The notes under the pieces were generated by a model that had not been told where the DNA came from, did no database searches, and saw only the letters and a program-made list of their open reading frames with translations. A stretch of 64,000 nt of DNA, taken from NCBI RefSeq assembly GCF_001922305.1, contig NZ_CP018839.1, positions 3,038,001-3,102,000 of the forward strand, read 5' to 3'. This document shows, one piece after another, positions 14,288-29,568 of this stretch. Origin of the DNA: Thauera chlorobenzoica. Its GTDB lineage: Bacteria > Pseudomonadota > Gammaproteobacteria > Burkholderiales > Rhodocyclaceae. The position numbers were made by a program, and so were the translations under genes. Each line of letters opens with the position of its first letter. Position 1 is the stretch's first letter.

Positions 14288-15220
14288 GAGGGGTTCTCCT
14301 TGTTGAGCAGTGATGCGGGCGGACTGCCCGACGGGATGCGGTCGGGCACGAAGCCCGGCCAGTTCGGCGATGAGTTGATCGGTGGTGGCGATGCGGTCGG
14401 CCAAGCCGGCATCGATGGCGGCCTGGCCGCGATAGGTTTGCGCCTGGGTCTTGCGGACGGCCTCAGGGTCCAGGTGGCGGCCGTTGGCCACGGCGCTGAT
14501 GAACATCTGGTGGAGGTCGTTGATTTCGGCCTGGAGGTCGGCGCGCACGCTGTCGGGCAGCGGCTCGAACTGGTTGCCGTCCACCTTGTGGTCGCCGGCG
14601 TAGATGTGCGTGACGCGGATGCCTTCCTGCGCCAGGGCTTGCGACAGATCGACGTGGCGCATGACCACGCCGATGGACCCGGCGTAGCCGGTGCGGGTGA
14701 TGGCGAAGTGTTCCAGGCCCGCCGCCGCGAGGTAGCCGGCGGATGCGGCCAGCCCGTCGGCGATGCCCCACACGGGCTTGTTGCCGCGCACCTCACGCAG
14801 GCGGTCGTGGTACTCGAAAGCGCCTTGCGCTTCGCCACCGGGCGTGTCGAAAACTTGCAGCACGGCGTGTACGTCGGTGTCGGCCTGGGCCATTTCGAGC
14901 GCGGCGGCCAGGTCGTTGTAACCGAGGATGCGGTCGCTGCTGGCCATGACGAAGCGGCCGCGATGGGCCAGCACGCCACTGGCGTAGATGACGGCCACGC
15001 CGTCGATGATCGCGTAGCCGGGGCGGCGGTCCTTGTCTTCCACGCGGCGGGTGCTGAACAGTTCCGCCGGCAGTGCAGACGCCTGCACGGCGTGCGCCAC
15101 CCCGGACAGGTCGGTATCGAGCAGGCGACCGCCCAGGCCGGCGATGATGGCGTCGAGCTTTTGCGGGTGGATGAGCAGCGGTGTGTTGAACACGCGCGCG
15201 GCAAGGTGCGGATACTTCAT
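13865..15220 (-). CDS. Phage prohead protease (gpC-like, S49 family)
   Basis: A 451-residue protein. Residues about 60-300 form an S49/SppA-like serine protease with nucleophile Ser160 in GLAASAGYLAAAG and probable general-base Lys212 in GDHKVDG. The C-terminal 140 residues are the Ala/Gln-rich scaffold part, also made separately from an internal start (see nested feature). This is the lambda C/Nu3 arrangement: the protease processes portal and scaffold during capsid maturation. It overlaps the portal gene by ATGA (15217-15220). Confidence 0.92.
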   Translation of the reverse strand: MKYPHLAARVFNTPLLIHPQKLDAIIAGLGGRLLDTDLSGVAHAVQASALPAELFSTRRVEDKDRRPGYAIIDGVAVIYASGVLAHRGRFVMASSDRILGYNDLAAALEMAQADTDVHAVLQVFDTPGGEAQGAFEYHDRLREVRGNKPVWGIADGLAASAGYLAAAGLEHFAITRTGYAGSIGVVMRHVDLSQALAQEGIRVTHIYAGDHKVDGNQFEPLPDSVRADLQAEINDLHQMFISAVANGRHLDPEAVRKTQAQTYRGQAAIDAGLADRIATTDQLIAELAGLRARPHPVGQSARITAQQGEPLMSETPQAGTTTQPATPAAVQAASPSLSQADIDRARAEGVEQGTQAERARVGAVLAHPSASCSPLALQCISTGLTTEQATAVLGAVPAAATVAAAPNNAFAAAMAAVPNPGVSGIEAAATPDNTEAALAASIVGLIGNARQ

Positions 15221-16917
15221 GACGTGACGGCCTCCTGGCCGAGCATGGCGAGGGTGTCGTGGTAGGCCGCAGCGCTGGCGGCGTCCGACGAGGGGCCGTC
15301 GTCGGCTTCGTCGTCGGGACCTGCAGAGGCGGTGTCGTCGCCCGCAGCTTCGGTGTCACGCCGGGTCAGACCGCTGCGGCGGGTTGCATCGGGGGCGGCG
15401 GTAGAGAGGCCACGCACTTCCTTCATCGCCTTCTCGATGGCCTGCTGGTCGAGGATCTCTTCAAAATCCTCGCCCTGCTCGGCGCATTCCTTTTCCAGCG
15501 TCGACAGCCCGGCGGCCATGCGCAGCACCACCGCCTGCACTTCCTTGACCGGATCGACCCAGCCCTTGCCGCCGAAGATGAATCGGGCCCGGCAGTAGGC
15601 GTAGCGGTTGCGGTAGAAGTCCGGGGCCTCGACCAGGCCGGCGTTGACAGCCTCTTCCAGCCACAGCTCGTACACGGCCTGCAGCCAGTAGTCCGACAGC
15701 CAGCGGCGGCGGCCATTGAAGTAGCGCCAGGCCTCGAGCAGCGCGGCGCGGGCACTGCTGTAGTTGCTCTTGCTGAAGTCCTTCAGCAGCAGCTCGTAAG
15801 GCAGGTTCATGCCGGCGGCGATGTGGCGCAGCGAGGCAAGCATGAAGGCTTCGAAGGCCGGGTTGGGGCGGCCGGGATTGAAGCTGGACAGGCGCGCACC
15901 CACCGGCAGCGGAATCACCGCCCCGCCCTGCAGCTTGCGGATGCTGCGGGCTTGGCGCACCGAGGTGTTCCATTGTTCGCGCACGCCCTCGGGGCTGTCG
16001 CCGAACAGCGCGGCGGCGGCATCCGGGCTGAGGTCGGATTCCAAAAAGGCGGCGACCAGGCTGTTGGCCAGACTGGCCTGCAGCTCGTTGTTCGCGTACT
16101 TGCCCGCCATATGGAACTCGCGCATCACCGCCGAGACGATGGGCTTGCCGCGGCTCTGGCCGGTGCGCTCCTTGTCGTGCAGGTGGATGACACGGCGCCG
16201 CCCCCAGGCGGTGAAGGCCGGGATGCGGGCCCAGCGCTGGGTGTGCGCGCTGCCCAGCCCGAAGCCTGCAAGTGCGTCAGCGGGGTGGCGTTCCAGCATG
16301 TGGTAGGCCACCGGGGCGCCGTAGTAGTCCTGCTCGATACCGGCGCGGATGTCGTCGCGGTGCATCATGCTGGTGGGTGTGCTGAGCCGGTTGGCATCCA
16401 CCAGCAGCAGGCGGGTGTTCCAGGCGCTGCCGGAACGGGGCAGCCACAGAGGCAGGGCCAGGGCGTCGCCATCGAGCATGGCGCCACCCAGGGCCTGCAA
16501 GGTGAGGCCCAACAGGTTGAGCGTGCGGCCGGCATCACATTCGGAGGTGGCGGCCCAGCTGCGGAAATGCGCTTCGGTGTTGTTGGCCCACTCGCGGGCC
16601 TGCTCGCGCGTCCAGCCCAGCAGCCGGTAGTCGGGGATGGCAGACAGCTTGAGCACGCTGCCGACGATGTTGTCGCGCATCGTCTGCATGGCGCCGCCCA
16701 TCAGCCCGTTGTTGCGGGCGAGATCGCGGGAACGCGCGGTGAGCGTGTCCAGGTCCGGCAGCAGGTCGGCATCTGCACTGCCGGCAACAGGATTCCAGTC
16801 GGCGGTGGCGAGATCGTACCCGGCGGACTGGTGTTGCCCGGCCAGCGCCGCACCACCCTGCCCCGCTTGGGTGCGGAGCGTGAGGTGAGGTTTGCCGGGC
16901 CGCCGTGCCATGCTCAC
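15217..16917 (-). CDS. Phage portal protein (lambda gpB family)
   Basis: A 566-residue portal (lambda gpB is 533). Conserved family stretches include SRDLARNNGLMGGAMQTMRDNIVG (about residues 62-85), MLERHPADAL, VIHLHDKERTGQSRGKP and GMNLPYELLLKDFSKSNYSSARAALLEAWR. The last 60 residues are an acidic, low-complexity tail. The dodecameric portal is the DNA gate to which terminase docks during packaging and the tail joins afterwards. It overlaps gpW upstream and the protease downstream by ATGA-type junctions, so the three are translationally coupled. Confidence 0.95.
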   Translation of the reverse strand: MSMARRPGKPHLTLRTQAGQGGAALAGQHQSAGYDLATADWNPVAGSADADLLPDLDTLTARSRDLARNNGLMGGAMQTMRDNIVGSVLKLSAIPDYRLLGWTREQAREWANNTEAHFRSWAATSECDAGRTLNLLGLTLQALGGAMLDGDALALPLWLPRSGSAWNTRLLLVDANRLSTPTSMMHRDDIRAGIEQDYYGAPVAYHMLERHPADALAGFGLGSAHTQRWARIPAFTAWGRRRVIHLHDKERTGQSRGKPIVSAVMREFHMAGKYANNELQASLANSLVAAFLESDLSPDAAAALFGDSPEGVREQWNTSVRQARSIRKLQGGAVIPLPVGARLSSFNPGRPNPAFEAFMLASLRHIAAGMNLPYELLLKDFSKSNYSSARAALLEAWRYFNGRRRWLSDYWLQAVYELWLEEAVNAGLVEAPDFYRNRYAYCRARFIFGGKGWVDPVKEVQAVVLRMAAGLSTLEKECAEQGEDFEEILDQQAIEKAMKEVRGLSTAAPDATRRSGLTRRDTEAAGDDTASAGPDDEADDGPSSDAASAAAYHDTLAMLGQEAVTS

Positions 16918-17314: not shown

Positions 17315-17599
17315 ATGCGACTGCTCGGCCAGATCCTGCTGGATGCCTTTAAGCGCACACATGCGGATGCGCGTCGGCCGCTGGATGCGTGGCAGGTGGA
17401 CGTCGAACGTGCGCAATGGTCAGGCCCGCAGGATGTGAAGAACCGATACCCGAGCGCCAGTTTCCTGGCGGACAACCGGGTGATCTTCAACATCAAGGGA
17501 AACAGCTACAGGCTGGTGGTGAAGGCAAAGTATCAGAACGGGATCGTTTTGATCGAGTGGGTCGGCACACATGCAGAGTACGACAAGCAGGATTTTTGA
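17315..17599 (+). CDS. HigB-type toxin, mRNA interferase
   Basis: A 94-residue protein of the HigB family (RelE-like ribosome-dependent mRNA endonucleases). The C-terminal signature YRLVVKAKYQNGIVLIEWVG, ending in THAEYDKQDF, is characteristic, as is the N-terminal WQVDVERAQWSGPQDVKNRYPSA. It lies 38 bp upstream of the antitoxin, giving the toxin-first order typical of hig loci. It probably stabilises the prophage or acts in phage exclusion, which is an inference. Confidence 0.88.
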   Translation: MRLLGQILLDAFKRTHADARRPLDAWQVDVERAQWSGPQDVKNRYPSASFLADNRVIFNIKGNSYRLVVKAKYQNGIVLIEWVGTHAEYDKQDF

Positions 17600-17637
17600 A
17601 CGACGCATGCCGACAATTGGGCGAGAGGGGAGCTGAA

Positions 17638-18852
17638 ATGGATCAACAAGTACGGGTAATCAAGACGGAGCGTGAATATCATGCTGCGCTGGCTCGCCTA
17701 TCGGCTCTCATGGACCAAGACATTGCAGCCGGGTCCGATGACGAAGCTGCGCTCGACTTGCTTGCAGTGGTCATTGCCGACTATGAGCGCACCAAGGTTG
17801 CGCCGGCCGTCATCGACCCCATCGATGCCATCTTGCTGGCAATGGACCAGCGAGGGTTGAGCAAGAAGGATCTGGAGCCGTTCATCGGCTCAATACCCAA
17901 GGTGTCCGAGGTGCTGGCACGCAAGCGGCCACTGAGCCTTTCCATGATCCGGAAGCTTCACCGTGCCTTGGATATCCCGGCAGACGTATTGCTGAGCGGC
18001 TCGGACAACGAAGACATCGACCTCTCCGAAACACCGCACTACGACTACAGCAAGTTCCCTCTGGCAGAAATGCTCGATCGCGGGTACTTCGGGAAGTTTG
18101 CCGGCGGGATCAAGCTCGCAAAAGCGAAGGCGGAAGAACTCGTACGCGGTTTCATGCATGGCGTCTCGCCCGACGGACCAGAGCCCGCGCTACTGCGCGC
18201 ACCGCTCCAGCAGAGTGGAGCCCGGACCATGGACGAATACGCCCTGCTGGTCTGGCGAGTTGCCGTGCTGAAGAAGAGCCGCAAAATTGCCCTGACCGGC
18301 AAGTACAAGCCGGGTGTGATCACCACCGACTGGCTGCAGGAACTGGTCCGGCTTTCCGCCTTTGACAGTGGGCCTAAGCTTGCACAAGAGTACCTCGCCC
18401 AAAGCGGCATCGCGCTCGTGATCGAGGAGCATTTCAAGAAAACCTACCTCGACGGCGCGGCCATGCTTGATGGCGAAACGCCGGTGGTGGCACTGACGCT
18501 TCGCTACGACCGGGTCGACAACTTCTGGTTTGCACTGTTGCATGAGCTGGTGCACGTGCAAAAGCACCTGAACGCCTCGCACTTGTTCATCGCAGACAAT
18601 CTGGATGACAAAACCCGCTCGAACGAAGAGGCAGAGCGGCAAGCCGATGCAGGCGCGAGCGAAGCACTTATCCCCACCAACGAGTGGGAGCAATCTGCCG
18701 TCAGAACCGTCCCGACAGCGGAAAACGCCCTTGCTCTGGCCAGAAAGCTACGCATCCACCCAGCCATTGTGGCCGGCCGCGTACGTCATGAGACCGGAAA
18801 CTGGCGGCTGCTCACCAACCTTAAGGGCGAAGTTCGCAGGTATTTCGAGTAA
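17638..18852 (+). CDS. HigA-like antitoxin fused to ImmA/IrrE metallopeptidase
   Basis: A 404-residue protein starting at the ATG at 17638 behind GAGGGGAG. Residues about 60-120 are a HigA/XRE helix-turn-helix (LSKKDLEPFIGSIPKVSEVL). Residues about 245-345 are an ImmA/IrrE zinc peptidase with HELVH at 302-306 and a downstream glutamate cluster (EEAERQAD, 330-337) as third ligand. Usual HigA proteins are 90-150 residues. Here DNA binding and a protease that in other systems cleaves repressors or antitoxins are in one chain, suggesting self- or partner-cleavage as a trigger. Base composition is lower in GC than the phage structural genes, which fits a horizontally acquired moron. Confidence 0.85.
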   Translation: MDQQVRVIKTEREYHAALARLSALMDQDIAAGSDDEAALDLLAVVIADYERTKVAPAVIDPIDAILLAMDQRGLSKKDLEPFIGSIPKVSEVLARKRPLSLSMIRKLHRALDIPADVLLSGSDNEDIDLSETPHYDYSKFPLAEMLDRGYFGKFAGGIKLAKAKAEELVRGFMHGVSPDGPEPALLRAPLQQSGARTMDEYALLVWRVAVLKKSRKIALTGKYKPGVITTDWLQELVRLSAFDSGPKLAQEYLAQSGIALVIEEHFKKTYLDGAAMLDGETPVVALTLRYDRVDNFWFALLHELVHVQKHLNASHLFIADNLDDKTRSNEEAERQADAGASEALIPTNEWEQSAVRTVPTAENALALARKLRIHPAIVAGRVRHETGNWRLLTNLKGEVRRYFE

Positions 18853-19343: not shown

Positions 19344-20174
19344 CTATCCCTCCGGCCTTACATACACATACCGCCGCGCCCCCTTCGCCATGCGCTGTTT
19401 GCGCCAGCCCAGCCGCGCCATGATGTAGCCGAGGCGGGTTTGGGCGCCGTGAAAATCGCTGTGGCCGGGGGTGAGGCCGATGGCGCCGGACAGGATGTCC
19501 TGTGATTCGAAGTGGTTGCGGGCGGCCTGCTCGGGGGCGTCCAGCCAGGCGGAAACGCGGCTGGCGGTGCCGTCGTCGTGAGAAATGGCGCGCAGGCGGG
19601 TGTCTGCGCTGACGGCCGGGGCGCTGGCGGCAAGGTCGGCGTCGGTAACGCCGAGCTCTTCCATGAGGTCGATGCCGGTGTGGCGCAGGGTGGCGGCGTT
19701 GGCCGAGCGGGCCGCGTGGGCGTGGCCCAGGCGCAGCCCCTGTGCTGCGCGCAGCAGGCCGTTGAAGCTGCGGGTGGCCGCCACGATGTGATCGGCCCGG
19801 TGCGCCACCGAGGTGGGCAGGCCGGGTGCCGCTGCCACGCCCGCCGCCGAATCGCGCAGATCGAAGAAGGCCCGGACCAGCGCCTTCTTGAACCCGCGCA
19901 CGATGTCGCTGTTGCGCATGTAGGTGAGCAGCAGCGTCGCCTGGGGTTCGTTGAGGAAGGCGATCTCTTGCCGCTGCGTTCCGCCTGCGGTTTCAAAGGG
20001 TCGGATTTCAAATCCAACCCTTCCGAACTCTTCCAGATCTTCAAGGTACTTCCGTACCAGCTTGATAACTGATGCGTGCTCAACTTCAGTGCCTTCGGCG
20101 ATCGCAAGGCTCGTAGTCACCAGTTCACCAGCGCGCTCGATCACGATCTCTGGCATGTGCAGGTCAGGCAGCAT
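19344..20174 (-). CDS. Rha-family phage regulatory protein
   Basis: A 276-residue protein if started at the ATG at 20174 (MLPDLHMPEIV). Residues 5-110 match the Rha domain: an opening strand-helix (MPEIVIERAGELVTTSLAIAE), HASVIKLVRKYLEDLEEFGRVGFEIRPF, then a block with EIAFLNEPQATLLLTYMRNSD. The C-terminal half (helical, RLGWRKQRMAKGARRYVYVRPE) resembles the C-terminal DNA-binding extension of many Rha/antirepressor proteins. In P22 and phi80-type phages Rha interferes with host functions and development; the exact role here is unknown. It lies among accessory genes in place of the normal head-gene neighbours. Confidence 0.85.
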   Translation of the reverse strand: MLPDLHMPEIVIERAGELVTTSLAIAEGTEVEHASVIKLVRKYLEDLEEFGRVGFEIRPFETAGGTQRQEIAFLNEPQATLLLTYMRNSDIVRGFKKALVRAFFDLRDSAAGVAAAPGLPTSVAHRADHIVAATRSFNGLLRAAQGLRLGHAHAARSANAATLRHTGIDLMEELGVTDADLAASAPAVSADTRLRAISHDDGTASRVSAWLDAPEQAARNHFESQDILSGAIGLTPGHSDFHGAQTRLGYIMARLGWRKQRMAKGARRYVYVRPEG

Positions 20175-20373
20175 TCTGGCCTCCGTTCGCATGCGAGCCA
20201 CGCTTACCGGGGCGGCCGCGCCGGGGTGGTACCACGCCGGGAATCGAAGCCTTGAAGGCGGCAAAACACGCATCTTGCTGTGCGGCGAAGTAGCGGCCCC
20301 ACTCCACTTGGCCGGCTTTATCGCGCAGCGTCCAGCGACCGAAGGGAGCGAGGTTGAGCGCCAAGTTAGGCAT
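20164..20373 (-). CDS. Small protein reading out of a truncated attC site
   Basis: A 69-residue frame whose first 20 codons lie in the half attC site at the end of the third integron cassette (20313-20371); the rest (VEWGRYFAAQQDACFAAFKASIPG) lies in phage-side DNA. It overlaps the end of the HEPN-like gene and the start of the Rha gene. The second half may be a decapitated phage gene whose start was replaced by the integron insertion. Whether it is expressed is unclear. Confidence 0.4.
   Translation of the reverse strand: MPNLALNLAPFGRWTLRDKAGQVEWGRYFAAQQDACFAAFKASIPGVVPPRRGRPGKRGSHANGGQNAA
20313..20371 (-). other. Truncated attC recombination site (cassette C)
   Basis: On the minus strand the stop codon of the HEPN-like gene lies in GCCTAAC, a perfect R'' core (RYYYAAC). 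A 5-base spacer and attC-like sequence up to GATAAAGCCGG follow, but the second half and the closing GTTRRRY core are missing. The array therefore ends in half an attC, the point where integron DNA meets phage DNA. Confidence 0.65.
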
Positions 20374-20803
20374 CGCCTTTCTCCGTGGCGAAAATTTCGT
20401 TCAATTCAGTAAGGCAGTTGACCAAATCGCTGTGAAGATGGTCTGCGCACACCTGCAGGGACTCTTTATTAAAATCTCCGGCATCGCCATAGCGCAGCAT
20501 GTGACGCTTGTAATAAGCATTGAGCAACTTCAGTTCTGATGTTGATTGGCTCGACAAGAATGGTCCGCCCGCGTTTCGATCAACCTCAGCAACAAGAACC
20601 TCCAGATCATGACCGAAATCCTTTCGTAGGATTGGCTCGTACTTTCCATAGTCATGGGCTAATAGCAAAGCTTTTCCTATGCATTCGAGCCCTTGGCACA
20701 ATAAATGTAGATAGACGAACCTGTGCCCTTCGTATGCTTTGACCAATCCGCCGGCCATGACAAAACTGCGGCCCTTTTCGTACATAGGAATGGTAATACG
20801 CAC
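20366..20803 (-). CDS. HEPN-like protein in integron cassette C
   Basis: A 145-residue helical protein from a GTG at 20803 preceded by AAGGGGG. It has the look of HEPN proteins: four to five helices, with ILRKDFGHDLEVL giving an R-x4-H motif (Rx4-6H is the usual HEPN RNase motif). Its stop codon lies inside the R'' core of its attC and its start lies 18 bp after the R' core of the preceding cassette, exactly as in integron cassettes. Many HEPN proteins are RNases in toxin-antitoxin or phage-defence systems; that is an inference here. GC content is well below the phage average. Confidence 0.6.
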   Translation of the reverse strand: MRITIPMYEKGRSFVMAGGLVKAYEGHRFVYLHLLCQGLECIGKALLLAHDYGKYEPILRKDFGHDLEVLVAEVDRNAGGPFLSSQSTSELKLLNAYYKRHMLRYGDAGDFNKESLQVCADHLHSDLVNCLTELNEIFATEKGDA

Positions 20804-20820
20804 GCGAGCCCCCTTGCGAT

Positions 20821-20892
20821 ACCTAACGTAGAGGTAACCGGCGCGAAGCCGGATTTATCGGCGGAGCGTCCGAGTTAACCGCCATGTTAGGA
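20821..20892 (-). other. attC site of cassette B (complete)
   Basis: A 72-bp imperfect dyad on the minus strand. It opens with TCCTAAC (which contains the stop codon of the OLD gene), continues with inner arms GGTTAACTC and GGTTACCTC around a GC-rich GGACGCTCCG...CGCGCC stem, and ends in the core GTTAGGT. Inner-arm spacing of 5 bases on one side and longer on the other is the attC pattern that lets the folded bottom strand be recognised by IntI. Confidence 0.85.
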
Positions 20893-22254
20893 GTTCATGT
20901 GCGTAGAAAGCGAGCCGAATAGTGTCTTAAGCTGCATTGCGTATTCTTCCTTGAGTTCCAATTTTTCGTTTAGCAATCCTTGAACCTCGTCCGTAGCTTT
21001 GCGCGGTGGTTTTGTGCGAATGTCCTTGGCCGGGATACATGCAAAGTGGAATTCCGGAAATTCGAGCGCCGCCTTATCCCGCTCTTCGGTCTTGTCTCCA
21101 TCAAATAGGCCTGCCACCTTCTTGTATCCAAGGTCTTTAAGAATCCGACATAGATGCCGGATGTTGCTAGCGCCGCCAGCACCCCAGCCGAAAAAATTCC
21201 CTGTGATCTCTGCTTTTACCTGTTCCGCTACCCGTGGCAATAGCAGAACATCTTCTTGCCCTTCAGTCAGGATTATTTGATCTTCCTGAAAAAATAGCTC
21301 GCGCGCATCAAGACCAAACACGTGTGGGTTGTACAAGTTTCCCTCTGATAGCCGGCTGATTGAGTCTTTCGCTGCAGCAGAAACTTCGTAGATTATTGTG
21401 CCTTCGTCCCCTGTCGCCACACGAGCCAAGTGGCCACCATTTGAAAGTGCTTTGAGGTCGACGAAATATGGGGAATGGGTTGAAACAACAATCTGCCTAT
21501 CTTTCGCAAATCTACACAGCAAGTTGGCAACTCTCTTTTGAAGGGCGGGGTGAAGAGAAAGTTCTGGCTCGTCGATTACGATGACGTCTCCAGGCTTCGA
21601 GTCGTAAAGGGAGTCGACTATGGAAAAAATGCTTACGATTCCTTCACCCATTCCATCACTTGAATGTGAGTCATCCCCGTTAAAGAACTTCAGAAAATAC
21701 TGTCCTTGGTCGGACTGGTCTATCGACCACTCTGGCTTAAAGGTCAGAACTTCATGGAGGATTTCATTGAATGCCGTTTGATTCTTGAGCACTGTGAAAA
21801 GTCGGTACTCGAATCCGCTCAGCATCGATGAGCGTTGAGGTGTAAGAGTTGAGTTGTTTAGATGTTGCTCTCTGGAGTGCTCAGATCGGCCAAAGTAAGG
21901 ATTGAATGCCCTGCGTGATGGAAGTACAAAGACGTGGAAATTAGAATCGACTCCTTCTTTCTTGGTTTCACTCGCGCCTTTCTTTATGGACTTAATTGTT
22001 TCCTCTTTGCCGTTGATAACGTATTTAATTCCAACCTCTTCAACGTTGGCGTTACGCGCTCCAACCGTAAAGCTTGGCGGTTGATGGCCTGCGCGAGCCT
22101 TGAGGCATTCCAAGATTGAAGACTTCCCAGCATTGTTTGGCCCCGTAATGACTGTTAAGCCGCTTCCGATCTCTCCGTTTGGAACGGAAAAATTTATCGT
22201 GCCGAGCGTCCTGAACCCCCGAAAACCCAAGATCTCCATTCTTGTAAGAGCCAT
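20887..22254 (-). CDS. OLD-family ATPase-Toprim nuclease (integron cassette B)
   Basis: A 455-residue protein. Residues 1-300 are an ABC/SMC-type ATPase: FRGF near residue 11, Walker A GPNNAGKS (38-45), a signature-like GMGEGI (201-206), Walker B VIVIDEPELSLHP (224-236) and H-loop STHS (259-262). Residues about 325-430 are a Toprim nuclease with ILTEGQED (acidic Glu331) and LFDGDK (385-388). This is the architecture of single-gene OLD nucleases such as P2 Old and relatives of Gabija GajA, which cut DNA in phage exclusion. No GajB helicase is adjacent. It is a promoterless cassette: its start is 14 bp after one attC core and its stop lies inside the next attC. Confidence 0.85.
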   Translation of the reverse strand: MALTRMEILGFRGFRTLGTINFSVPNGEIGSGLTVITGPNNAGKSSILECLKARAGHQPPSFTVGARNANVEEVGIKYVINGKEETIKSIKKGASETKKEGVDSNFHVFVLPSRRAFNPYFGRSEHSREQHLNNSTLTPQRSSMLSGFEYRLFTVLKNQTAFNEILHEVLTFKPEWSIDQSDQGQYFLKFFNGDDSHSSDGMGEGIVSIFSIVDSLYDSKPGDVIVIDEPELSLHPALQKRVANLLCRFAKDRQIVVSTHSPYFVDLKALSNGGHLARVATGDEGTIIYEVSAAAKDSISRLSEGNLYNPHVFGLDARELFFQEDQIILTEGQEDVLLLPRVAEQVKAEITGNFFGWGAGGASNIRHLCRILKDLGYKKVAGLFDGDKTEERDKAALEFPEFHFACIPAKDIRTKPPRKATDEVQGLLNEKLELKEEYAMQLKTLFGSLSTHMNS

Positions 22255-22267
22255 GAGTTGTGTTAAC

Positions 22268-22336
22268 TCCTAACGTGAAGGTAACCGGCCTTGCGCGGCT
22301 TTATGCGCAAGGTCCGTGTTGACCGAAAGGTTAGAT
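22268..22336 (-). other. attC site of cassette A (complete)
   Basis: A 69-bp imperfect dyad on the minus strand. It opens with ATCTAAC (a perfect RYYYAAC core holding the stop codon of the cassette A gene), contains arms GGTCAACAC / GGTTACC, a stem with CCTTGCGC and GCGCAAGG, and ends GTTAGGA. Like the other attC it lies between a stop codon and the next start codon, 13 bases away. Confidence 0.85.
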
Positions 22337-22711
22337 TTTTTTTGCAACGACGATAATGCCCTCCGTGTAGCTATATCCGTAGCCGTAGCCGTAGCCCCAA
22401 CCGCCGTTGGCCCCTGGACCACCTTTGGTTTCATATTTCCAGGAGTAGTTGCCGGAGGTGACGTCTGTCAGCGACATAACCTCAAAGCCTTGCTCGTTCA
22501 ATTTGTCCACGGCAGCTGCGACGTCCTTAGCTAAACGCTGGCCGTCAATTTCACGATCAGACCAACCTGTTTGAACCCATTGCTCTTCCTTTCGGAAGAC
22601 CTCCTTTTCACCGCCGAAGAATCCCTTCTTCGTTTCACCGGTAGGCACCTTGATGGTTTCAGCTTTTCCTATGGGTTTGAAAAATGCTTCTACAAAGACC
22701 ACTTTGTTCAT
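22331..22711 (-). CDS. Integron cassette A protein, unknown function
   Basis: A 126-residue protein. The N-terminal 90 residues are a mixed alpha/beta domain with KKGFFGGEKEVFRKEEQWVQ and a helix (AKDVAAAVDKLNEQGFEVMS). A Gly/Tyr repeat (GWGYGYGYGYSYTEG, residues 104-118) precedes a final beta strand. No signal peptide or membrane span is visible. Its stop lies in an attC core and its ATG, with AGGAG in front, lies 16 bp after the attI-like core, so it is the first cassette of the array. Not recognised; a defence role is possible by association only. Confidence 0.7.
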   Translation of the reverse strand: MNKVVFVEAFFKPIGKAETIKVPTGETKKGFFGGEKEVFRKEEQWVQTGWSDREIDGQRLAKDVAAAVDKLNEQGFEVMSLTDVTSGNYSWKYETKGGPGANGGWGYGYGYGYSYTEGIIVVAKKI

Positions 22712-22727
22712 TGCGGCTCCTAAAAAA

Positions 22728-22795
22728 ATCTAACTTTGTTTTAGGGCGACAGTTCTACTGCATAACATCTGAATGCCGGATAACATTTTTTGCAA
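22728..22795 (-). other. attI1-like integron recombination site without integrase
   Basis: On the minus strand the sequence just upstream of cassette A ends in GTCGCCCTAAAACAAAGTTA followed by GAT. From memory this matches the class 1 integron attI1 end through the crossover core, and the preceding GATGTTATGCAG and ATGTTAT resemble the attI1 direct repeats DR1 and DR2. About 35 of 42 bases seem to agree. No intI gene lies beyond it; 220 bp further on is the Mor-like gene. This marks the proximal end of a class-1-like integron whose integrase has been lost. Confidence 0.75.
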
Positions 22796-22893
22796 GCTAT
22801 TGTTTAGACGTAGAAAGCGCGCGAAAAGCACCATAACAAGGTAGGAAAAGCAGCTGCCGACGGCATAGCGGGGCTGCGACCCATCTAACACAT

Positions 22894-22913
22894 AAGCGGT
22901 AAGCATACCGCTT
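22894..22913. repeat. 8-bp-arm hairpin downstream of Mor-like gene
   Basis: AAGCGGTA and TACCGCTT surround AGCA, about 105 bp beyond the Mor-like gene stop and 100 bp before the attI-like site. There is no T-tract. It may be an RNA 3' end, a regulatory site, or a boundary scar between phage and integron DNA. The surrounding 22796-23017 interval holds no supported gene; GTTAGAT on the minus strand at 22884-22890 is a lone core-like heptamer. Confidence 0.35.
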
Positions 22914-23017
22914 CGACCGGATGATCGCTATCTGGATCGAATTTCAGCGGGTGGTATATGGCCGATAGTACCCTGCGGGCATCCGAAGCACGCTCAAAGG
23001 AGACATGGAGCCGCTAC

Positions 23018-23311
23018 TCACCGCGCACTGGCAATCTGCCGCACCCACCGCACGCTCACCCCAAACTCCCGTGCCAGCACCGCCGCATTGCGGCCGGTGA
23101 ACCGCCCCCGGATCTCCGCAATAACCCGCTGTCGGTCGCGGAGCCGGCGACGCGGCACGTAGATGTTCTCGCCGCCCAGGCGCAGCATGATGCGCTCGAC
23201 GAACATGGCGGCCATGTCTTCGCAGGCCGGAATGCCGAAGGACTTGGCGACAGCGCGGGCTTCGTCTTCGATGACGGCGATGGGGTCGTCGTCGATGTCG
23301 TGTTCGTTCAT
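23018..23311 (-). CDS. Mor-like transcription activator domain protein
   Basis: A 97-residue protein from the ATG at 23311. The C-terminal part, IYVPRRRLRDRQRVIAEIRGRF...REFGVSVRWVRQI, matches the Mor/C (phage Mu middle activator) helix-turn-helix pattern, with GRFTGRNAAVLAREFGVS as the recognition region. The N-terminal acidic segment and helix could dimerise. It lies 11 bp downstream of the large terminase gene, at the boundary with the integron DNA. A regulatory role in phage transcription is likely; its target is not apparent. Confidence 0.75.
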   Translation of the reverse strand: MNEHDIDDDPIAVIEDEARAVAKSFGIPACEDMAAMFVERIMLRLGGENIYVPRRRLRDRQRVIAEIRGRFTGRNAAVLAREFGVSVRWVRQIASAR

Positions 23312-23321
23312 GGTCGGCCTC

Positions 23322-26300
23322 TCAGTGCATGGGGATGGGGGCGAATAGCTCGTCGTCTGCATCGCTGGTGGATAGGTCGGCAGCGGGCAAGGCGACGGGG
23401 ACGACAGGCTGTGCGCGAGGCGGCTGGGCGGGTGCTTGCGGGGCTTCGGCGTGGGCCTGTGAGGGCACAGGGGCGCTGAACAGATCTGGCGCGAGCGCGT
23501 CCCGCCACTTCTGCCACGTGCTGGCGGGGGTGGTGTGGTAGCCCATCGCCTGGGCCAGGAAGAGCACGATGACGGTGCAGTCGAGCACCTCGTTGCGGTG
23601 CCCGCTGGGGCATACCCAGCGGTCGGCCCAGCCGTGGGCCATGCGCACCTTGATGCGGTGCTCGGCGGTGAGCTGGTCGAACCATTCGGGCGGCAGGTGG
23701 CGGTTGAGGTGGATGTAGCCGGGGCCGGGTTGTTTGACCTGGTCGAGCCGGCCGTGGAGCAGATCCTTGGCGGTGTCGACGCAGATGCGCCAGAGCTTGA
23801 CGCCGCGCTTGAGGGTTTTGCCGAAGGCGTTCACGTCCACCCAGCTGGGCTTCATTTTGATGGGGGCGCCCAGCGCCTGGTCGCCCTTGGTGGCGAAGAC
23901 CTTGCGGGCGTTCATGGCGCGGCAGTAGGTGTAGGCCTGGTGCGTCCAGTTGGTGCCGCCGGTGTCGATGCCAACGGCGTCGATGGGCATGGCGTGGCCG
24001 TTGATGTGGCGGTAGGTGGCTTCGATGACGGGGTTGAGCTTTTCGAACCATTCCTGCTGCTGGGCCGGGTTGCCGTAGATGACGCGGTAGTCGATGGGCC
24101 ACATCTCCTCGCCTTCGCCGATGGCCCAGGCGACGGCTTCCCAGCGGTCTTGCTGGGTGTCGATGCCAAGCAGGATCTTGCAGGCGCCCTGGGGGACGCG
24201 CTGCAGGGGGAGGTCGATGTCGGTGAGGGCGCGGGCACGCAGCAGGCTGGCGTCGGTGTGGTCGTATTCCTCCTCCCAGACGTCGGCGAGGGTTTCATTC
24301 TTGAAGCCCTGCATGGGGCCGCTGTCGCCGAGCTTTTGCGCTTTGCGGGCCTCGAGAAATTCGCGGACGATGTCGGGCCAGGCGCGCTGCGGGCTGTAGG
24401 CGGTCCAGACGTTGACGAAGGCGACGTGGCGCGGGGGTTTGCGCGGGGTGCCGCGGCTGTCGGTCCAGACCTTAGCGGTGTGGTTGTAGAGGTAGTCGCC
24501 GCAGCGGCTGACCCAGCGGCCGGCTTGCCAGATGGTGAGGTAGTCGGCCTGGGTGATGGGCTCGTTGCAGTGGGGGCAGACGTGGCGGACGGTGGCGGGG
24601 TCGGCGTTGTCCCACTTGAAGCCATGGCGGACGTCGGCCCCGCCCCACATGAGGGGGTGGTCGAGCTCGCAATGGGGGCAGTCGATGCGGAACTCCATGA
24701 CGGCCTCGGCAGCCTGCACGCGGCGGCGGACGTGGCTGGTGAGCTTGTGGCGGGGGGTGGTGCCGAGGATGATCTTGGGAAACGGGGCGCCTTCCAGCCG
24801 GCCCTTGGCGCCGGTGACGGGGTCGATGGTCTTTTCGACGACCTGGTCCATGGCGTCGACTTCGTCGAGGATGGCCACGGCGATGGTGATGCGGCGAAAG
24901 CTGCGGGCGGCCTTGGCGCCGAGGTAGTGCTGCACGCTGCCACGGAAGCGCTTGAACTTGATGGTGTCGTCGTCGCGGCCGAGGCGGCGGACGGGGTCGA
25001 GCCCGCGGCAGATGTCGAAGGACGGGGTGATCTCGGACTTGACGAAGCTGTCGCGATCGTCGTCGGTGGGTTGCCAGATGGCGAGCTTGCGGCGGCGATG
25101 CGCGGCGTTGTATTCGGCGAAGCCGACGACGGTTTTGGTGTTGTGAGTAGGCACCATGGCCCGGGTGCACAGGAAGAGATGGCTTGGGCTGTCGACTTCG
25201 ATGCAGCGCACGGGGACGCTGGCGATGGGTTGAACGCTGACAACGCGCCGGCAGTAGGTGATGGTGGGGCGTTGTACCTCGATTACGCGGTGGGCCTTGC
25301 GCTGCAGGTTGAAGGGGTTGATGGCCGGCGACGGTTTGAAGTTGACCCGGTATTGGTCGAGGTGATGCGCTTGCTGACGCATCCGACCGCGCAGGGTGGC
25401 TTTGAGGCCCAGCGAGACGACCAGCTCATACACGCCGTCTGCCAGTGCCTTGTTGGTGCTGACGAATTCGCACCGGCCATTGGTGCCAACGGTGCCATCG
25501 GAATCCATCAAGCCGCGCAGCAGTTGCAGGCGCTGGTTGCGCGAGGCTCGCAGGTAGATGGGCGGGATATGTTTGCTGCTGAGCAGGCCAAGCGCGCGGA
25601 ACCGGGCGGCCCAGGGCGTTACGGCGCGCGGTTCGTCCCCGACATCGAGCAGGATGGTGGCGTTGTTTGGATTCCGTTGGTCGAGATAGCACACGCGGGC
25701 GTCGATACCTTCGGCACGGATGTGGTCGGCGGTTTCTACATCGCCCCGGTGTTGCGTGATGCGGGGCGTGACAAGGTGCCCGTCGCCCAGCCAGAGGCCG
25801 AGGGTGTAAGGCGGAATGGGCAGGTCTGCGTTGGGCAGCTCGAGCGCGGCGGCGTTTCTGATGCGGAGTTGGTTATAGCTCCAGCCTTGGGACTGGATTC
25901 GGGCCATCTGGCCGGTGTCGAGAATGCCCTGCGTGGTGACCTGACGCCCCCGTGGCGGGCGGCCAAAGGGGCGGGACTGGCTGGGGGATAGGAGGTATTC
26001 GAAGCTGACCCTGCTTTCGACCATCCAGCGGTGACCTTCGTCGGCAACGACTTGGGTGCCATCGCAGAAAGTAATGCGGTAGCAGGTGTGGTTGCGGTAG
26101 ATGGGTGAGCAGTAACGCACGATACAGGGGCGCCCTGCTTCGTCGAACACGGTGTCGCCCGGCGCGAGGCGGCCCATGGTTGTCCATCCGCTGGGGGTGG
26201 GCACGGGGGTGTCGAGTGCGAGGGCGTACCCCACCCGCTTGGCCTTCTCGACGTTGACCTCCTCGATGTCGTCATTCGAGAAGGCGTCCATCCAGCCGAT

Positions 26301-26477
26301 TTGGAACGGCCACGGCACGAACAGGCCGCGCTGGTGGCTGGATTCTTCGTCGAGGTCGAAGTGCTCGGCCGCCCAGGTGCTGTAGGCCACGGGCGGGTCG
26401 GCCTTGAGGGGCCGCAGGCCGGCTTCGATGGCGCGCTTGAGGGCGTCGAGGGTTTCGGTGGGCAGGCGGGCAGTCAT
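23322..26477 (-). CDS. Phage terminase large subunit (gpA-like) interrupted by intein
   Basis: A 1,051-residue precursor. Removing residues 85-446 (the intein) leaves a 689-residue terminase like lambda gpA (641). The rejoined Walker A region reads KAKRVGY-TKTVVG, matching the lambda KSARVGYSK type. Walker B is AVAILDEVD (533-541), zinc-ribbon pairs are CPHC at 600-603 and 634-637, and the nuclease acidic motif is LLGIDTQQD (about 769-776). The enzyme packages DNA and cuts cos-type ends, working with the Nu1-like subunit encoded 3 bp upstream. Without protein splicing the ATPase would be broken, so packaging depends on it. Confidence 0.95.
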   Translation of the reverse strand: MTARLPTETLDALKRAIEAGLRPLKADPPVAYSTWAAEHFDLDEESSHQRGLFVPWPFQIGWMDAFSNDDIEEVNVEKAKRVGYALALDTPVPTPSGWTTMGRLAPGDTVFDEAGRPCIVRYCSPIYRNHTCYRITFCDGTQVVADEGHRWMVESRVSFEYLLSPSQSRPFGRPPRGRQVTTQGILDTGQMARIQSQGWSYNQLRIRNAAALELPNADLPIPPYTLGLWLGDGHLVTPRITQHRGDVETADHIRAEGIDARVCYLDQRNPNNATILLDVGDEPRAVTPWAARFRALGLLSSKHIPPIYLRASRNQRLQLLRGLMDSDGTVGTNGRCEFVSTNKALADGVYELVVSLGLKATLRGRMRQQAHHLDQYRVNFKPSPAINPFNLQRKAHRVIEVQRPTITYCRRVVSVQPIASVPVRCIEVDSPSHLFLCTRAMVPTHNTKTVVGFAEYNAAHRRRKLAIWQPTDDDRDSFVKSEITPSFDICRGLDPVRRLGRDDDTIKFKRFRGSVQHYLGAKAARSFRRITIAVAILDEVDAMDQVVEKTIDPVTGAKGRLEGAPFPKIILGTTPRHKLTSHVRRRVQAAEAVMEFRIDCPHCELDHPLMWGGADVRHGFKWDNADPATVRHVCPHCNEPITQADYLTIWQAGRWVSRCGDYLYNHTAKVWTDSRGTPRKPPRHVAFVNVWTAYSPQRAWPDIVREFLEARKAQKLGDSGPMQGFKNETLADVWEEEYDHTDASLLRARALTDIDLPLQRVPQGACKILLGIDTQQDRWEAVAWAIGEGEEMWPIDYRVIYGNPAQQQEWFEKLNPVIEATYRHINGHAMPIDAVGIDTGGTNWTHQAYTYCRAMNARKVFATKGDQALGAPIKMKPSWVDVNAFGKTLKRGVKLWRICVDTAKDLLHGRLDQVKQPGPGYIHLNRHLPPEWFDQLTAEHRIKVRMAHGWADRWVCPSGHRNEVLDCTVIVLFLAQAMGYHTTPASTWQKWRDALAPDLFSAPVPSQAHAEAPQAPAQPPRAQPVVPVALPAADLSTSDADDELFAPIPMH
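25140..26225 (-). other. Class 3-type intein with LAGLIDADG endonuclease in terminase
   Basis: A 362-residue in-frame insertion from Ala85 to Asn446. Splicing block A starts ALALDTPVPTPSGW, with Ala where most inteins have Cys or Ser. Block B ends ADEGHRW (Trp151), block F is VPVRCIEVDSPSHLF (Cys425), and block G is MVPTHN followed by Thr. Trp, Cys and the Thr before His-Asn form the WCT signature of class 3 inteins, in which the block F Cys attacks first. Two dodecapeptide motifs (LGLWLGDGHL at about 226-235 and LLRGLMDSDG at 319-328) show a full LAGLIDADG homing endonuclease, so it is a mobile and not a mini-intein. Confidence 0.93.
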
Positions 26478-29237: not shown

Positions 29238-29568
29238 CTCATCACCTCGTCACGCTTCCCTGCCCTGTTTCCCAGCCTTCCCAGCCTCAATACCGAGGTT
29301 GGGAAGCCAAAAGCCTTGCAATCCCTGCTTGTTCCCAACCTTCCCAACCTTCCCAACCTTTTTGTTCGGTGCGCACGCGAGCGCGCGCGGGGGCGTGTAC
29401 GTGCCCCCGCGCCCTCGTACGCGCACGGGCGAGCACGCGTGAAGCGCGAGGCTGGGAACGTTGGGAAGGTTGGGAACCCCCAGCAACGGCGCGGGTTGCA
29501 GCTTCCCAGCCTCTGCGCAGAGGCTGGGAAGGCTGGGAACGGAGGGTGGGAAAACGCCCACGGCGCGA
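29238..29568. repeat. Iterated inverted-repeat region beside primase gene
   Basis: A 331-bp non-coding interval with C-strand units (TTCCCAACC or TTCCCAGCC) at 29268-29288 and 29331-29358, and G-strand units (GGTTGGGAA or GGCTGGGAA) at 29295-29308, 29450-29481 and 29521-29551, separated by an alternating CG-rich core (29359-29449). It includes a perfect 30-bp palindrome at 29502-29531 built on CTTCCCAGCCTCTGC. The whole forms a nested dyad. Location next to the primase-helicase suggests a replication origin or iteron cluster; a structured RNA is the alternative. Confidence 0.7.

Follow-up and report, generated by a model that had tools for sequence, protein, structure and literature searches.

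An integrase-less leader-attI unit heading a three-cassette array in a Thauera chlorobenzoica prophage

Phage-borne cassette arrays and functional attC sites in phages have already been published (PMC9892861), including a cluster of attC sites lacking integrases (CALIN) with its own attI. The DNA studied here is a 64-kb stretch (G000:C1:3038001-3102000, hereafter the window) of the genome of Thauera chlorobenzoica, a single contig of 3.74 Mb, in which a lambda-type prophage holds three integron cassettes behind a 235-bp leader-attI unit (C1:3060.7 kb of the host chromosome). The preliminary description of this DNA had taken cassette arrays in a temperate phage for an unusual route of cassette spread, a point on which the published arrays had anticipated it. 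We consider it quite probable that the prophage carries a non-autonomous integron platform, that is, an integrase-less leader-attI unit and three cassettes, likely inserted by the IntI1 of the host chromosome.

Shewanella prophage M16-3 likewise holds a cassette array with attI, at the head of a CALIN. According to PMC9892861, however, that prophage also encodes an intact IntI and has a Shewanella-type attI, whereas here the intI1 sits in another part of the host chromosome and not in the prophage. The array also has the two marks of a CALIN, as given in PMC9024848, namely at least two attC sites and no integrase nearby, yet at its head stands a dedicated leader-attI unit that is conserved and found repeatedly in different genera. 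Delta-attI-type cassettes, as described in PMC12901181, carry attI-derived sites for which the minimum consensus AAACAAAGTTRRRY was defined, and the architectures tested with IntI1 were functional; the core in the window fits this consensus, but the delta-attI sites replace attC at the cassette end, whereas here a whole unit heads the array. A class 1 integron (intI1-attI1) shares with the leader unit the attI core with about 40 bp upstream, the left edge CGGCCA and, where a leader sits in a Tn402-type end, the distance of 95-96 bp from the Tn402 inverted repeat. It differs in that leader units lack intI1 and are multi-copy and dispersed, and the remaining ~195 bp of the leader unit share only one weak 21-bp match with it.

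The array and its prophage

Read on the minus strand from 22964 to 20309, the array consists of the leader-attI unit, cassette 1, attC, cassette 2, attC, cassette 3 and half an attC:

20309..22964, minus: array within the prophage, with the Mor gene on one side and the Rha gene on the other
22730..22964, minus: leader-attI unit, 235 bp; initially detected in relatives with blastn; nhmmer match over model positions 1-237 (E 3.2e-63), this copy being in the seed of the model
22959..22964, minus: left edge CGGCCA, which with the preceding bases reads AGGGTACTATCGGCCA, identical to the end of a small tyrosine-recombinase module in locus L063
22728..22741, minus: attI core AAACAAAGTTAGAT, with the crossover expected between 22734 and 22733; fits the minimum consensus conserved in delta-attI1 sites
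22274..22733, minus: cassette 1, 126-aa protein of the phrog_15841 family (open reading frame, ORF, 22331-22711)
22268..22336, minus: attC of cassette 1; rule-based finder, DNA matches in other genomes, covariance model (67.0 bits)
20827..22273, minus: cassette 2, 455-aa AAA ATPase with an OLD-like TOPRIM domain (ORF 20887-22254)
20821..20892, minus: attC of cassette 2; rule-based finder, DNA matches in other genomes, covariance model (46.4 bits)
20309..20826, minus: cassette 3, 145-aa protein (ORF 20366-20803); truncated attC at 20309-20371
20309..20314, minus: right edge CGGCCA, oriented like the left edge and cutting the third attC; from sequence, junction inferred

The preliminary description had placed the array at 20313..22795; the array is real, but it reaches 22964 on the left and 20309 on the right, and no empty site was found for the right-hand junction. 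An attI site at the head and attC-bounded cassettes, the third attC being truncated, are the parts of a complete integron found in the sequence. No IntI-like gene was found in the 64-kb window at E<=1e-5, leaving the array without the cis intI1 of a complete or class 1 integron. The absence of intI reported earlier thus holds for the window but not for the cell, as the chromosome carries, near C1:285.6 kb, an intI1 whose reading frame is uninterrupted (508 bits), together with attI1 and an array of its own, and a decayed second leader copy lies 17 kb from that intI1 (L010 13643-13819). Near-identity of the prophage site to attI1, also proposed before, ends after about 40 bp: the alignment to the host's attI1 takes in 40 of the 233 query bases, at 88% identity, which falls short of a full attI1. 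Judged by its sequence, the prophage attI is not class 1 attI1, since only the last ~40 bp match, preceded by ~195 bp of a conserved leader with another sequence. The consensus AAACAAAGTTRRRY occurs once in the window (22741-22728, minus), and the chance expectation of the 30-mer around the core is 0.00.

Each cassette ORF stops inside a YYYAAC-type core on the minus strand (ATCTAAC for 22331-22711, TCCTAAC for 20887-22254 and GCCTAAC for 20366-20803), and the start codons, in cassette order, follow the preceding 7-bp GTT core by 16, 13 and 17 bp. The rule-based attC finder, run with an energy filter on both strands of all 64 kb and relaxed after a stricter first pattern gave zero, returned 22336-22268, 20892-20821 and a low-complexity palindrome at 29333-29475 (both strands). 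The covariance model was seeded with 19 attC sites including both window sites, and the scores listed above are therefore partly by construction. The model had no further match in the window at E<=1 and none in control loci at E<=1 (L010, L094, L095) or at E<=0.05 (L010, L011, L012), where L010 is an unclean control that contains the decayed leader. Because the window sites are in the seed, DNA matches in other genomes are the more independent evidence: array DNA 20360-22735 matched 36 of 101 genomes, own included, and the listed non-self matches all fall at query 383-479 or 1845-1918, over the two attC sites. Six plasmid records matched as well, all over an attC and five beside OXA-2-type genes. 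The three cassettes with stops in attC cores are thereby borne out, and the attC covariance model, whose silence the preliminary description had named as a reason to abandon them, recovers two sites, both of them seed members.

The cassette 2 protein has AriA as its best PADLOC match and Old as the next, and the cassette 3 protein has 83 database matches, own included, two of the listed homologues being named HEPN-domain proteins. The OLD/AriA-like ATPase and the HEPN-family protein are predicted to serve phage-phage competition. No convincing Pc promoter was found: 20100-23100 has a single sigma-70-like site, where cassette 2 starts (2.0 such sites were expected), and the leader consensus reached at best 8/12. 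An Rfam search of 20000-23400 gave no match, and no convincing RNA structure was found in the leader (-7 kcal/mol across 240 columns).

The surroundings of the array are those of a phage, as had been described, with the following neighbours:

23018..23362, minus: Mor-type late activator, left neighbour (PF08765, phrog_532)
19344..20273, minus: Rha-type regulator, right neighbour (PF09669)
23322..26477, minus: terminase large subunit GpA with a LAGLIDADG insertion, a probable intein (PF05876, PF20454, PF14528)
15217..16917, minus: lambda-family portal protein (PF05136)

An S49 protease, a major head protein, a tape measure, a CII-like regulator and a primase complete the set of lambda-type prophage genes, among which the GpA terminase, the portal, the S49 protease, the tape measure and the CII-like regulator identify a lambda-type temperate phage. 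The lower GC noted for the array was also found, at 0.48-0.53 versus 0.64-0.68 in the flanks. A related prophage in genome G019, whose flanking blocks have 81-89% DNA identity, holds different genes in the Mor-Rha interval; related prophages with the same three genes and unrelated intergenic sequences, which would have spoken against cassettes, are thus not what this prophage presents, and no leader match was found in the G019 genome. A viral contig 97% identical to the prophage (L085) has the left part of a leader at the equivalent spot and then other DNA. Its likeness to the window (L085/L114) ends at 22814, and it was the sole viral contig with leaders in five scans of viral contigs; a profile search for leaders in viral contigs L147-L159 found none. 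L147 is identical to the window across 5483 bp, starting at 20829. A second accessory block, at 17315-18852 between Rha and the portal, holds a 487-aa ORF matching phage transcriptional-regulator families and a small protein that we take to be HigB-like.

An attI1 core was also seen at the extreme end of an IMG/VR contig (L025, bases 17-57). The adjoining DNA is the same as that beside the leader of plasmid pN260-3 next to IS26, and the viral label of this contig is doubtful for that reason.

Hosts and conservation of the leader-attI family

A profile search of 88 loci (969 kb), mostly picked for having matches, yielded 47 full leader copies (model start <=5 and end >=229) in 45 loci, and 38 of the 47 are below 93% mutual identity over the unit alone (thinning with 55 flanking bases taken in left 46). 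With the window leader as query, leader or core was matched in 28 of 200 relatives, own included, and with a second member as query in 69 of 395 family genomes, spread over 22 of 68 genera, where many rows are core-only and hence plain attI1. At least 120 bp of leader were found in 42 of the 395, own included; outside the family, matches came up in just 2 of 368 other class-level genomes and spanned no more than 43 and 24 bp. As these DNA searches scored two or three candidates per genome, leader copies per genome are lower bounds. The exact leader pattern occurred in 14 stretches, with hosts including Thauera, Azoarcus, Aromatoleum, Pseudothauera, Diaphorobacter, Pseudomonas sp. MRCP1333 and a Tepidiphilus metagenome-assembled genome (MAG), and the leader is present on resistance plasmids, intact on two (pMRCP1333, pYKBR041) and partial on a third (pN260-3). 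Both edges of the unit are sharp: conservation rises from 0.23 bit/column before CGGCCA to 1.53 in the first 12 columns, and falls from 1.41 in the last 29 columns up to the core to 0.17 after it. Given such a conserved unit, it is very improbable that the phage gained its cassettes through off-target insertion at an attG-type site, with no dedicated platform involved. Integration at attG sites is documented (Loot et al. 2024, as cited in PMC12444791), but the site here belongs fully to a conserved family of attI sites and is not a minimal genomic target.

An IntI1-like match (>=50% identity) is absent from the fetched locus for 46 of the 47 full leaders, the exception being L078, which has a divergent intI1 unit at a distance of 1 kb behind its leader; other tyrosine recombinases, with 26-34% identity to IntI1, occur in some loci. 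This absence raises the question of ordinary degradation, in which a complete class-1-like integron lost intI in place and left a CALIN with attI. Over 21 bp the leader consensus is similar to the region around the intI1 start codon, with a score that none of 500 shuffles reached in a restricted test and that the best of 300 exceeded in an unrestricted test. We rate this explanation as unlikely, since loss in place is expected to leave intI remnants of varying length, whereas unit and edges alike are repeated in 47 copies that are preceded by unrelated DNA, and near-identical cassettes are common to leader and intI1 arrays. Descent of the leader itself from an intI1 remnant was likewise set aside, the single 21-bp resemblance being suggestive only.

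The dispersed integrase-less attI family, which was no part of the preliminary description, looks new, whereas phage-borne cassette arrays were already known. No description of such a family or of the CGGCCA edge was found in the literature searched, which left out most subscription journals, and a literature search on class 1 integron boundaries found nothing.

Some leaders are cut at an upstream GTT, and L013, L067 and L137 go on as cassette-like DNA. In L068-L070 an IS91-like element, so labelled by reading of the protein with no database match, follows GTTGAAC at a cut leader. A tyrosine recombinase (33% to IntI1) follows GTTGAAC at attI or leader sites in L068:4304-6388, L070:4305-6389, L126, L079 and L143, and in L068 and L070 the next ORF is transposase-like (IS91-like, again by reading of the protein).

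Cassette loading in trans

Around 64 leaders, 72 attC sites lie on the same strand within 3 kb downstream, whereas the other strand has 2 and the 3 kb upstream have 8; neighbouring leaders share some of these attC sites, the model was seeded partly from these loci, and the counts leave out the weakest matches (9 of 82 and 10 of 45 rows). An attC was found for 41 of the 57 leaders with at least 0.8 kb of downstream DNA. Leader arrays and intI1 arrays also have cassettes in common: L128 (leader) shares 1378 bp at 99.855% with L079 (intI1) and 588 bp at 100% with L078 (intI1), and L109 (leader) shares 647 bp at 99.845% with L078. A GTT core lies about 10 bp or less from the ends of these matches, apart from one end of the 588-bp match, which falls inside an interrupted attC. 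The leaders of pMRCP1333 and pYKBR041 are identical over 234 bp and are followed by differing resistance arrays; pYKBR041 and its aac(6')-31 are reported in PMC9499019, where 'attI' is absent from the main text. The leader of pN260-3 is cut at its left end beside IS26, and this plasmid has a separate intI1 integron as well.

From these patterns, IntI1 likely acts on leader-attI sites in trans. The 235-bp unit without integrase gene would serve as a docking site in the prophage, and IntI1 encoded elsewhere in the same chromosome would insert the three cassettes. Several observations weigh against this. The motif AAACAAAGTT is kept in only 33 of 55 units and AAACAAAGTTRRRY in only 19 of 55, and as so few retain the minimum core consensus, many leader-attI units are probably decayed or dead. 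By the covariance model, 16 of the 57 leaders have no attC. Plasmids pMRCP1333 and pYKBR041 have no IntI match of their own, a search for IntI1 at E<=1e-30 found nothing in nine leader-bearing genomes (G003, G008, G009 (one contig), G010, G014, G021, G022, G027 and G064), and four more (G001, G013, G037 and G061) have only distant IntI (53-62%). If loading in trans is true, one IntI1 could load many platforms per cell, including a prophage-borne one and those of resistance plasmids, and the latter would escape intI1-based surveillance. More than one intI1 copy or fragment per genome was seen for L077 (G012:C2) and L079 (G018:C1).

The CGGCCA edge

Leader units and the intI1 unit both have CGGCCA as their left edge. 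All eight Tn402-type ends compared have CGGCCA 95-96 bp from the inverted repeat, and the cargo that follows differs: intI1 (pN260-3, L077), a leader (pMRCP1333, pYKBR041, L126, L128), a beta-lactamase gene (pB3) or tetR-qac (pYKBL037). In L126, a single low-coverage metagenome contig of the Tepidiphilus MAG, a 95-bp Tn402 left end identical to that of pN260-3 and L077 is followed by a leader, with the switch exactly at CGGCCA. As in Tn402-like transposons, four leader units are preceded, at 95-96 bp, by 23 bp that match the Tn402-type inverted repeat exactly, and tniR in the loci of Tn402-associated leaders is 97-100% identical to that of pMRCP1333 (partial in L128). Unlike these, the window copy is without a match to the inverted repeat in a pattern search of the window (tni genes were not searched for there).

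A gene for a 206-aa tyrosine recombinase abuts leaders (e.g. L048, L063, L071) and an intI1 unit (L078); copies of it include the following:

L063:3353-3970, L048, L066, L078, L010:12075-12686, L160-L172: small tyrosine-recombinase gene

A CGGCCA at 60-95 bp past the gene forms the 3' edge of 21 out of 30 copies; in 13 it reads GTACTATCGGCCA, and six of the 30 are bounded by exact inverted ends, TGGCCGATAGTAC...GTACTATCGGCCA. The DNA beyond CGGCCA differs among most copies (L010/L129 and L055/L161 are alike), and nine copies, mostly more distant or cut, have no CGGCCA edge. At E<=1e-40 the gene was found in 26 of 150 genomes, own included. The module is possibly a minimal mobile element, and that CGGCCA bounds both it and the intI1 unit in Tn402-type ends hints at how units move.

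Mobility at CGGCCA is plausible as a hypothesis: whole units may move by recombination at this edge, with the 206-aa recombinase, a neighbour of several units, as a possible catalyst. The fuller proposal is that leader units are satellite integrons, integrase-less platforms that borrow IntI1 and are moved at a 6-bp CGGCCA core by the small tyrosine recombinase, and that the same reaction put intI1-attI1 into a Tn402-type transposon, yielding the ancestor of clinical class 1 integrons; taken whole, we regard this as doubtful. The shared edge does make testable how a Tn402-type transposon came to capture the chromosomal class 1 integron.

Nearly even chances attach to a simpler account, in which CGGCCA is a mere dispersed intergenic repeat and units spread by homologous recombination or transposons, with no dedicated recombinase. 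The extended motif CGGCCAnnAGC occurs 81 times in 58 leader loci against 11.9 expected (L013-L016, L109 and L085 omitted from the count), and 39 of these are leader starts; 42 remain, control loci have 9 against 1.8 expected and the window 3 against 1.65. The motif is not specific to leader units, as it is over-represented away from them too, and the four units in Tn402-type ends have a known transposon route. Against a mere repeat stand the Tn402 left ends, which swap cargo exactly at CGGCCA, and the recombinase modules, most of which enter different DNA past their CGGCCA 3' edge. Movement by the small recombinase is in turn disfavoured by its abutting a minority of units only and by its absence, at E<=1e-40, from several leader genomes. 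CGGCCA itself is common (1375 occurrences on both strands of 679 kb), and being so frequent, and without empty sites, it cannot prove the right-hand edge of other units.

A second family of short repeats, CGGCCATCAGCTGCCGGTCGTGGTTACA-like, also starts at CGGCCA (L055:10450, L115:1927, L118:2136, L066:5523 and 6491) and may be another kind of unit.

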